Shown: positions 57,739 through 60,516 of the stretch, piece after piece
How the letters are laid out: each line of letters starts with the position of its first letter
Position numbering within the stretch: position 1 is the stretch's first letter
Source: a virus
Length of the DNA stretch: 64,000 nucleotides
Direction: 5' to 3' (one strand)
IMG/VR virus record: IMGVR_UViG_3300025435_001056
Coordinates: 62,001-126,000 of that record
Program-made: the position numbers and the translations under genes
Notes under the pieces: model-generated
What the model was told of the DNA's origin: nothing
What the model saw: the letters and a program-made list of their open reading frames with translations, nothing else
Database searches by the model: none

Positions 57739-58094
57739 TGGCAAAAAGTATCAAAAATTGTAGATTTTAAACCAGACAAGTTATATAATACTAAGTATTT
57801 TAGAGAGTAGAAAAAACAACCAGGCTAACATTGCGTTTAGCGGAGGATTACAAATCAAGATCTACTCCACAACGGACGGGTCAGTGCCGCAAAGCTGACC
57901 GGTATTAAAGAGGACTTCGGAAATCCTCTTCATTGACAAATGGTATGGGCAAACTGGAAACAAAGGTTTGCTTAGAGAGTATGGCACTGAGGCCCGAGGT
58001 CTTGATCTGTCTAAATATCTACCCACCGCCATTGTCTGTGCGCCCATTCCGGGCATCCGCTGAAACGGTCCAGTTGAACCGAAGGAGGACGACA
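57739..58094 (+). other. Structured intergenic region, candidate leader or non-coding RNA
   Basis: This 356-nt gap has a weak TTGTAG / TTATAT-TATAAT promoter (57758-57789). Stems follow: 57843-57868 (GGAG/CTCC ends); 57876-57884 with 57895-57903 (9 bp, one mismatch); 57908-57914 with 57924-57930 (7 bp plus an inner TT/AA); and GCCC/GGGC at 58042-58054. Short reading frames with protein-like sequence (such as RGLDLSKYLPTAIV) are broken by stops in every frame, so a decayed gene is also possible. A late-type CTAAATA lies at 58011-58017. No tRNA or known riboswitch was recognised. Confidence 0.45.
58012..58017 (+). promoter_or_regulatory. Late-type promoter (CTAAATA) for the SleB-type lysin
   Basis: TAAATA 77 nt upstream of the lysin ATG; late control would suit a lysis gene. 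Confidence 0.45.
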
Positions 58095-58812: not shown

Positions 58813-58839
58813 ATGAATAACACTTGCGAGTCGAAATAA
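58813..58839 (+). CDS. Leader peptide, 8 codons (MNNTCESK)
   Basis: The ATG lies 6 nt after TATAAT, at the predicted +1, so the message would be leaderless. The stop TAA shares its last base with the ATG of the next gene (TAATG), so ribosomes finishing here would restart on it. The main gene has no Shine-Dalgarno. Translation of so short a frame is inferred from this geometry. Confidence 0.5.
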   Translation: MNNTCESK

Positions 58840-59234
58840 TGGCATTCCATCTTGAAGGACCGTGGTTAAGCACAACTGGCAAAAAGCGAGGCCCCCGTAA
58901 ATGGGCCAGTTCCGAAGCCAAACAATTAGCTCAAAAACGGCAGGCTGAATGGGATCGTAAACTGATTCAGTTTGAAAAGATGGCGCCTAAATTTAGTACA
59001 GGACCTTATAATGCTCCAAGAAAAACAATACACGACTTTATACCAAAAACTCCACCAGGGCGCGAAACAGTTGCTATCCCTAGTCAGGATACTGGTTGGG
59101 TTGCCTGCGTAAAAGCACAAGATACCGAATATACCGGTACCAAAGTAAAAGGTATTGGCACCATGCACAAATCCAATGCTGTGCCTATTTTCTCCGATGA
59201 CGAAGCAAAAGATATAAGTAAAATGCGTCGCTGA
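58839..59234 (+). CDS. Hypothetical protein, 131 aa
   Basis: The start AFHLEGPWLSTTGKKRGPRKW, the basic helix AKQLAQKRQAEWDRKL and the end TGTKVKGIGTMHKSNAVPIF, followed by SDDEAKDISKMRR, resemble a small phage protein family of unknown function. The longer frame from 58824 is out of place: the ATG at 58839 follows the leader peptide directly. Likely early. Confidence 0.78.
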   Translation: MAFHLEGPWLSTTGKKRGPRKWASSEAKQLAQKRQAEWDRKLIQFEKMAPKFSTGPYNAPRKTIHDFIPKTPPGRETVAIPSQDTGWVACVKAQDTEYTGTKVKGIGTMHKSNAVPIFSDDEAKDISKMRR

Positions 59235-59250
59235 AAAAGGAGATAGTGTC

Positions 59251-59469
59251 ATAGCAAAAGAAGAAGTAATCAAAATGGACGGGTTAATAGCCGAAGTGCT
59301 ACCCAATACCCAGTTCCGTGTGGAAATTGAAGGATTTGAACGAGCTATCTTGGCTACTTTAAGTGGACGCATGCGGCAAAACAATATCAAAGTGCTAGCC
59401 GGTGATACGGTAGAAATGGAATTTAGCCCTTACGACCTAACTCGCGGTCGTATTACCCGACGCCGATAA
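59251..59469 (+). CDS. infA: Translation initiation factor IF-1 with probable AUA start codon
   Basis: From ATA at 59251 the protein is 72 residues, the standard IF-1 length, and begins AKEEVIKMDGLIAEVLPNTQ after the initiator, as in bacterial IF-1 (MAKE...). The OB fold motifs FRVEIEG, HISGKMRKN-type (ATLSGRMRQNNIKVLAGD) and SPYDLTRGRITRR are all present. AAGGAG ends 8 nt before ATA. The first ATG (59275) would cut off 8 conserved residues and has no ribosome site. A sequencing or assembly error (ATG to ATA) is the alternative. IF-1 binds the ribosomal A site during initiation. Confidence 0.9.
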   Translation: MAKEEVIKMDGLIAEVLPNTQFRVEIEGFERAILATLSGRMRQNNIKVLAGDTVEMEFSPYDLTRGRITRRR

Positions 59470-59477: not shown

Positions 59478-60020
59478 ATGCGTGAAATAATTGACCTAGT
59501 AGAAGCTTCTACCCGACCAGCCAAGCTGGAAACCACAACCTTGCCCTACACTCACAAGGCCTTGGAACCGGTTATGAGTGCAGATACCATTGAGTATCAT
59601 TACGAACATTTGGCCAAGGGCTATGCAAAGAAATACAATGCAGGCGAAGGCGACCCTGACTTTAATCGTGCTGGAAGTTTCCTGCACAACAAGTTCTTCC
59701 CACAGTTGCGTGAACCTCGCGGTGCCAATAGACCCAAGGGTGCAGTATTGGAACTGATTGAAACCAAGTTCAAAACCTACGAAGACTTTAAAGCAGCAGT
59801 TAAAGAAGTGGCCATGAAGATCCAAGGAAGTGGTTGGATATATCTATCAACCGGTGGCGAAATCAAAACCATTCGCAATCATGCTGTTCGTACCGATATC
59901 TGTGTCTTGATTGACTGGTGGGAGCACTCGTGGAGTTTGGATTATCAATGGGACAAAGAGAAGTATTTGGATAACATCTGGAAGATTATCAACTGGGATG
60001 TTTGCAACGAACGGTTGTAG
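59478..60020 (+). CDS. Fe/Mn superoxide dismutase with capsid-targeting-like N-terminus
   Basis: The 180 residues align to FeSOD/MnSOD: LPYTHKALEPVMSADTIEYH, with metal ligands His41, His70 (FLHNKFF), Asp146 and His150 (DWWEHSW), plus GSGWIYL and a C-terminal DNIWKIINWD. It converts superoxide to O2 and H2O2. The first 19 residues (REIIDLVEASTRP...) are extra compared with bacterial SOD and match the start of the 531-residue protein; L-V-E|A fits the T4 prohead-protease site. It may be packaged in the capsid. H2O2 made here could be handled by the phage AhpC/AhpD. Confidence 0.93.
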   Translation: MREIIDLVEASTRPAKLETTTLPYTHKALEPVMSADTIEYHYEHLAKGYAKKYNAGEGDPDFNRAGSFLHNKFFPQLREPRGANRPKGAVLELIETKFKTYEDFKAAVKEVAMKIQGSGWIYLSTGGEIKTIRNHAVRTDICVLIDWWEHSWSLDYQWDKEKYLDNIWKIINWDVCNERL

Positions 60021-60023
60021 TCA

Positions 60024-60043
60024 TAAATACTCGTGGGAACACG
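60024..60043 (+). promoter_or_regulatory. Late-type promoter (CATAAATA) with GNRA-loop hairpin before the HNH gene
   Basis: TAAATA 60024-60029. CGTG-GGAA-CACG (60032-60043) is a small hairpin with a GNRA tetraloop, 5 nt before the ATG at 60049. Confidence 0.45.
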
Positions 60044-60048
60044 CAACC

Positions 60049-60516
60049 ATGAGAACAACCAAAAAACACAGACGCATTTACGAAGATTATTATAATGTAA
60101 GATTGCCAAGCATTATTGAAATACATCATATTGATGGCAATCACGATAACAATGATATCACAAACTTAATGGCAGTTACTATCGAAGAGCACTTTGAAAT
60201 TCATAGACAACAGGGCGATTACGCTGCGGCATTTAGAATATCACAAAGAATGGAAGTTAGCAAAGAGGAAAAAAGTAGATTGGCATCCTTAGCCGCAACC
60301 AAAGCCAATGCAGAAGGAAAATGCGGGTTTAAATTGGGTCATGCTTCGATCGCTGGAAAGGTAGGCGGCAAAAAAGGTGGCGCCTATGCTAAGGAAAACC
60401 GTACAGGAATATTTGCATTAACACCCGAACAGAATAAACAACGACATTTCAATTCTGTAGTAACCAAAATGATTAAAGCCGGCAAAGCAAGTGCTTGGCC
60501 AAGAGAGGAAATATGA
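60049..60516 (+). CDS. HNH homing endonuclease
   Basis: [20 protein letters not shown] (about 24-43) carries the HNH core: His26, His27, Asn35 and Asn39, with His52 after EEHFE. The C-terminal half is Lys/Gly-rich ([17 protein letters not shown]), as in other phage HNH enzymes. The gene sits between SOD and ErpA and its stop overlaps the ErpA ATG, as if inserted into a co-transcribed unit. The frame is open upstream into the SOD gene; I use the first ATG. Confidence 0.85.

Follow-up and report, generated by a model that had tools for sequence, protein, structure and literature searches.

A phage gene for translation initiation factor IF-1 (infA) is confirmed, by comparison with its relatives, to start at an AUA codon. 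Such a start is not isolated, and on sequence evidence AUH codons (AUU, AUC or AUA) have entered the first position of phage infA genes from several independent origins. The reading that we favor, and hold to be reasonably probable, is that ATA 59251 starts a functional phage IF-1 through Shine-Dalgarno (SD)-led initiation, and that discrimination against this codon by IF3 and IF1 would keep the factor at a low dose. The gene lies in what we call the window, the whole 64,000-nucleotide stretch of DNA that was analyzed, taken from bases 62001-126000 of a virus record that is 176,632 bases long.

The infA locus and its product

The product of the gene (IAKEEVIKMDGLIAEVLPNTQFRVEIEGFERAILATLSGRMRQNNIKVLAGDTVEMEFSPYDLTRGRITRRR) matches Pfam PF01176 at 3.6e-18, scores 92.9 bits over residues 3-71 against the NCBIfam equivalog TIGR00008, above the cutoff of 61.15, and is matched by 12 distinct IF-1 sequences of the PDB, the best at 2.4e-20 over residues 2-71. 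By these matches it is a genuine bacterial-type IF-1 with a predicted function on the 30S subunit. The initial annotation of a phage IF-1 gene is upheld by all three comparisons, and its anatomy of the start region, consisting of AAGGAG, an 8-nt gap and ATA at 59251 opening a frame of 72 residues, was reproduced in every coordinate and length (Table 1).

Between positions 57933 and 60839 the genes are arranged in the order SleB-like cell-wall hydrolase, phrog_27048 ORF, infA, superoxide dismutase (SOD) and IscA-like Fe-S protein. The gene order around infA recurs in phage contigs; of 161 loci, 125 have SOD downstream and 105 have IscA. An HNH endonuclease ORF (59911-60516) that overlaps the SOD gene at its 3' end is missing or fragmented in some relatives and is possibly a homing insertion. 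No tRNA genes were found within the 64-kb window.

Table 1. Features at the infA locus, in window coordinates
Feature	Position	Strand	Basis and remarks
Upstream ORF, phrog_27048, no assigned function	58839..59234	+	stop TGA 59232-59234, 16 nt before ATA
TATAAGTA, late-promoter-like element inside the upstream gene	59213..59220	+	sequence; leader would be about 25 nt long and contain the SD
Shine-Dalgarno AAGGAG	59237..59242	+	gap 59243-59250, 8 nt to ATA; duplex -8.7 kcal/mol
GTG-TCA-TAG, two codons out of frame, stop overlapping ATA	59246..59254	+	sequence; possibly irrelevant
ATA start codon	59251..59253	+	aligned codon 1 in relatives is TTG, ATG, GTG, ATT or ATC
infA, phage IF-1, 72 codons, ATA 59251-59253 to TAA 59467-59469	59251..59469	+	ORF, Pfam, NCBIfam, PDB homology
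Next in-frame ATG (codon 9), rejected as start	59275..59277	+	SD pairing -1.8 kcal/mol; selection on codons 2-8
Fe/Mn superoxide dismutase, next gene, ATG start	59478..60020	+	homology, SD energy; TAAATA just upstream, no SD, leaderless-like

AUA as the start codon of infA

The infA frame extends 5' of ATA 59251 for 11 sense codons (V K C V A E K G D S V) to an in-frame stop, and none of the 11 is an NTG codon. Pairing with the anti-SD is far stronger for this ATA than for the ATG at 59275. Codons 2-8 align residue by residue with those of 80 relatives. The window gene differs from that of L014 by a dN of 0.16 and a dS of 0.97, and from its nearest relatives by a dN of 0.14-0.18 and a dS of about 1 or more. 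For codons 2-8 only, the ATT-start genes L008 and L219 give a dN of 0.06 and a dS of 0.97, and this combination of low dN and high dS indicates that the residues 5' of the internal ATG are translated and selected even in AUH genes.

It is very unlikely that the ATA codon is a sequencing or assembly error for a true ATG. It was seen in one record alone, and no near-identical copy of this region was found in the phage collection; the nearest infA homolog, with about 82% protein identity, has a TTG start, so ATA itself rests on one assembled record. However, AUH is present at the same codon in contigs from other samples, always with a strong SD, and the infA frame and the selection on it are otherwise intact. 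That the product instead begins at ATG 59275 and has 64 residues is barely credible despite the standard start codon at that site, because there is no usable SD, codon 1 is NTG in most relatives, selection conserves codons 2-8 in AUH genes as well, and codon 9 of the ATT-start gene L082 is CTT, so no internal start is possible there. The view that this ATG lacks a ribosome site and would remove conserved residues, as first put forward from the sequence, thus agrees with both the pairing energy and the selected codons. An ORF caller restricted to ATG, GTG and TTG yields only the 64-residue ORF from codon 9.

Start codons across phage infA

Viral contigs were scanned five times with IF-1 queries, which gave 161 distinct infA genes. 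Codon 1 is ATG in 88 of these, TTG in 59 (in two of these, read one codon further on), GTG in 6, ATT in 4, CTG in 2 (both with TTG next), ATC in 1 and ATA in 1. A pattern scan for AUH behind GGAG produced six matches: four known AUH infA genes, one sequence that is not infA, and the gene of a distant phage IF-1 (L259) that provides a second ATA start. The equivalent scan for NTG behind GGAG produced 20 genes, all of them infA (ATG 6, GTG 5, TTG 9). AUH therefore represents 6 of the 26 phage infA genes with a well-placed GGAG, the window gene included, and GGAG is found 5-8 nt upstream in all phage AUH infA genes. In TTG-start genes (L025, L046, L007 and others) the SD is often 11-13 nt from the start, beyond the usual optimum. 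Sinorhizobium phage Phosso carries an infA with a TTG start. A two-way table of SD strength and start codon was not significant (p 0.2), because the TAAG of a promoter-like element in ATG genes was scored as a four-base SD.

A protein tree of infA was built without codon 1. On this tree the eight AUH rows (seven phage and one bacterial) require seven changes, mostly beside TTG neighbors, and there are 30 changes between ATG and non-ATG starts. The exact number of AUH origins is uncertain because the alignment has only 71 columns and many forks are unresolved; for example, the ATT gene of L056 and the ATC gene of L080 differ by 21 synonymous codon changes and may represent one origin or two. 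The window gene and five other AUH genes belong to a 56-row clade (SH-aLRT 99) together with 37 TTG and 13 ATG rows. Thus, the comparison of starts in related phages that was proposed with the initial annotation reveals that AUH recurs among the relatives, although the nearest relatives of the window gene use TTG. This repeated appearance of AUH in related viral infA genes suggests that the phages carrying it probably hold IF-1 production down.

Neighboring families and bacterial infA

Non-ATG starts are present in 73 of 161 infA genes versus 1 of 110 genes of the family directly upstream (p about 2e-19, uncorrected for relatedness). ATG occupies the modal start in 109 of 111 homologs of that upstream family, and other families of the same locus with a clear N terminus have nearly all ATG starts. 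An in-frame ATG precedes the conserved block in 140 of 142 SOD and 107 of 107 IscA genes; this form of control fails for infA itself, where the conserved block starts after the internal ATG. In the cell-wall hydrolase family, 14 of 70 genes are without ATG before the block, so some neighbors do use non-ATG starts. No AUH starts were seen in the neighboring families that were checked. Two candidates were rejected: apparent ATA or ATT starts of IscA homologs are a column artifact with the real ATG directly after, and a family with the motif MPHLYLDMDG and ATT at the modal column has its true start further upstream.

A search of 84,980 bacterial and archaeal genomes with the AUH pattern gave 33 matches, one of them a real infA (L290). 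It is a second, divergent infA copy in an Omnitrophota MAG (L290/L321), with an ATT start behind AAGGAG; the adjoining ORF looks, by eye, like a cold-shock protein. The effective bacterial denominator is thousands of genes and not 84,980, because the pattern matches few of the sampled genomes: in its NTG form it hits 26 of the 120 Pseudomonadota sampled and, in the phylum of G003, 1 of 61; in its any-NTN form it hits 5 of 78 in the Omnitrophota sample, and the known ATT infA is among these five. One test took bacterial AUH as 1 in about 18,000; this figure is an upper end and does not represent a rate.

The infA genes of Pseudomonadota with an SKEDVIEMEG-type sequence (L325-L348), which are probably Alphaproteobacteria, start with TTG or GTG behind GGAG in every case read, and the roughly 80 infA matches from 200 Pseudomonadota genomes include no AUH. 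Since TTG and GTG are normal in this type of bacterial infA, only AUH is unusual in the phages. A non-AUG start of infA is not phage-specific; the phages are peculiar in having moved to AUH repeatedly.

Leaderless-like genes and promoter-like elements

The sequence TAAATA is found 5-7 nt before ATG 24 times in the whole record (the window and L379-L385), against an expectation of 4.7 from other distances (p 2e-10). The element and an SD hardly ever occur at the same ORF (1 overlap versus about 11 expected, p 2e-6). Transcription from T4-type late promoters starts about 5 nt after the element; if TAAATA acts as such a promoter, the messages would be leaderless, and the counts suggest about 24 leaderless late genes in the phage record. 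A class of leaderless messages had been predicted in this DNA at the outset, and it gains support from the enrichment of TAAATA and its near-exclusion of SD sequences. The phage encodes a UvsY-like protein, which supports its T4 kinship; no T4 late sigma factor was found among 30 sampled proteins.

Among infA homologs, TAAGTA or TAAATA is located 4-9 nt upstream in 44 of 84 with ATG versus 0 of 70 with non-ATG starts (p 2e-15, uncorrected). On supported branches of the tree the association of ATG with the element is represented by three independent pairs and is never contrary, a number too small for significance. With a late-promoter-like TAA(A/G)TA so often 4-9 nt upstream, the ATG infA genes look leaderless. 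The confinement of the element to ATG genes agrees with the published requirement of leaderless messages for AUG (PMC4611024, PMC9031893), which other NTG codons cannot replace on leaderless mRNA (PMC4611024). The window infA, with an SD and ATA, differs from the leaderless form, in which AUG is at the 5' end and no SD is present. A promoter at TATAAGTA upstream of it is a guess, because TAAGTA as such, unlike TAAATA, is not enriched before ATG in this record.

Possible action of the AUA start

The codons AUU, AUC and AUA are those that IF3 discriminates against at the start position, UUG and GUG are not subject to this discrimination, and IF1 together with IF3 antagonizes non-canonical 30S complexes and locking with non-canonical ligands (PMC4611024). 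In S. aureus the infC gene begins with AUA, extended SDs precede AUH starts, and reporters with AUH starts reach about 10% of the AUG level in poor medium (PMC13009471). The start at 59251 shares with infC-type genes both a codon of the AUU/AUC/AUA set and a strong SD offsetting the poor codon. No IF3 gene was found in the phage record, so any discrimination would go via host IF3.

We propose that initiation at AUA 59251 would be led by the SD, and that host IF3 aided by IF1 would reject most attempts. The strong SD at optimal spacing would partly offset the poor codon, and the net result, judged from sequence and published codon behavior, would be a low, IF3/IF1-sensitive dose of phage IF-1. 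As IF-1 accumulates, its own AUA could be rejected more strongly, and the factor would feed back negatively as IF3 does on infC. Such feedback is plausible by analogy, and a loop of this kind is reasonable because of the antagonism by IF1 and IF3 of non-canonical 30S complexes (PMC4611024). In related phages infA expression would be set instead by UUG with an SD, or by AUG placed in a leaderless-like context, in which no other codon would work well. The start codons do not point to a general need for IF3/IF1 feedback on phage infA, because TTG, the commonest non-ATG infA start in these phages, is not IF3-discriminated. The initial annotation had interpreted the AUA codon as a site of feedback; its placement among the IF3-discriminated starts (PMC4611024) and the recurrence of AUH in relatives strengthen that interpretation, and the feedback itself is something we infer. 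For its further proposal that phage IF-1 could tune initiation on leaderless messages, one hint is that infA genes with ATG tend to have a leaderless-like context and those with other starts do not. The infA sequence is fitted equally well by feedback, by a constant weak start or by translational coupling.

It is possible, if on balance improbable, that the weak codon fixes a low IF-1 dose without feedback, as AUU does for E. coli pcnB. UUG, GUG, AUH and SD spacing would then be interchangeable ways to weaken initiation. The frequent switching of start codons on the tree is in keeping with this, as is the long SD spacing of many TTG genes, which is another weakening, and the escape of UUG from IF3 discrimination (PMC4611024); yet it is precisely IF3-sensitive codons that recur in the gene for the partner of IF3, and the AUH starts do not extend to the checked neighboring families.

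We regard translational coupling as rather unlikely, though a serious alternative. Ribosomes ending the upstream ORF would re-initiate at AUA via the SD, start-codon quality would matter less, and IF-1 would be tied to translation of its neighbor. Coupling could drive initiation at AUA because the upstream stop is just 16 nt before ATA, and, where an upstream gene could be found, a stop is 9-16 nt from the AUH start (five of six cases). However, ATG-start homologs have similar upstream gaps, with 10 and 6 nt the commonest, and a transcript from the predicted late promoter would make infA independent of the upstream gene. The specific neighbor is also not conserved: in L056, L080 and L219 some ORF ends close to infA, but the homolog of the upstream ORF has its end about 950 nt off.

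Beyond the SD-led, IF3/IF1-discriminated start that we prefer, it is conceivable, though doubtful, that self-limitation of IF-1 holds the fidelity set point of the 30S subunit during a switch from SD-led to leaderless late translation, and that this was reinvented several times.

Relation to known systems and significance

The infC genes of E. coli (AUU, with IF3 autoregulation) and S. aureus (AUA) resemble the phage gene in encoding an initiation factor from an AUH codon behind a strong SD, with a plausible self-limiting loop. Unlike in those systems, the factor is IF-1, it is phage-encoded in a record where no IF3 gene was found, the feedback is conjectural, and the phage relatives more often start with UUG or AUG. 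The IF1 of huge phages is likewise the product of a phage infA and is thought to redirect host translation; the main text of that study makes no mention of start codons (PMC7162821), and AUH and UUG starts are documented here family-wide. The SKEDVIEMEG-type infA of Pseudomonadota also has a non-AUG start behind GGAG, but this is NTG only. In E. coli pcnB, as cited in PMC13009471, the AUU start is alike in that a poor codon limits expression, but no translation-factor feedback is implied there. A search covering part of the literature found no paper on AUH starts in infA. Phage IF1 genes (PMC7162821) and start-codon control of infC are already known.

With the AUH-start genes, start-codon control of initiation factors would reach beyond IF3 to IF1, and beyond bacteria to phages. 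These genes also form part of a natural set of orthologs with AUG, UUG, GUG, AUU, AUC and AUA starts in comparable contexts, which makes two questions directly testable: whether the level of IF1 acts on IF3-discriminated start codons in vivo, and whether phages adjust the dose of their own translation factors by choosing a leaderless AUG or an SD-led non-AUG start. Gene finding limited to ATG, GTG and TTG shortens AUH-start genes. If the self-limiting reading is true, a phage gene would here run a feedback loop of an initiation factor on the ribosomes of its host.
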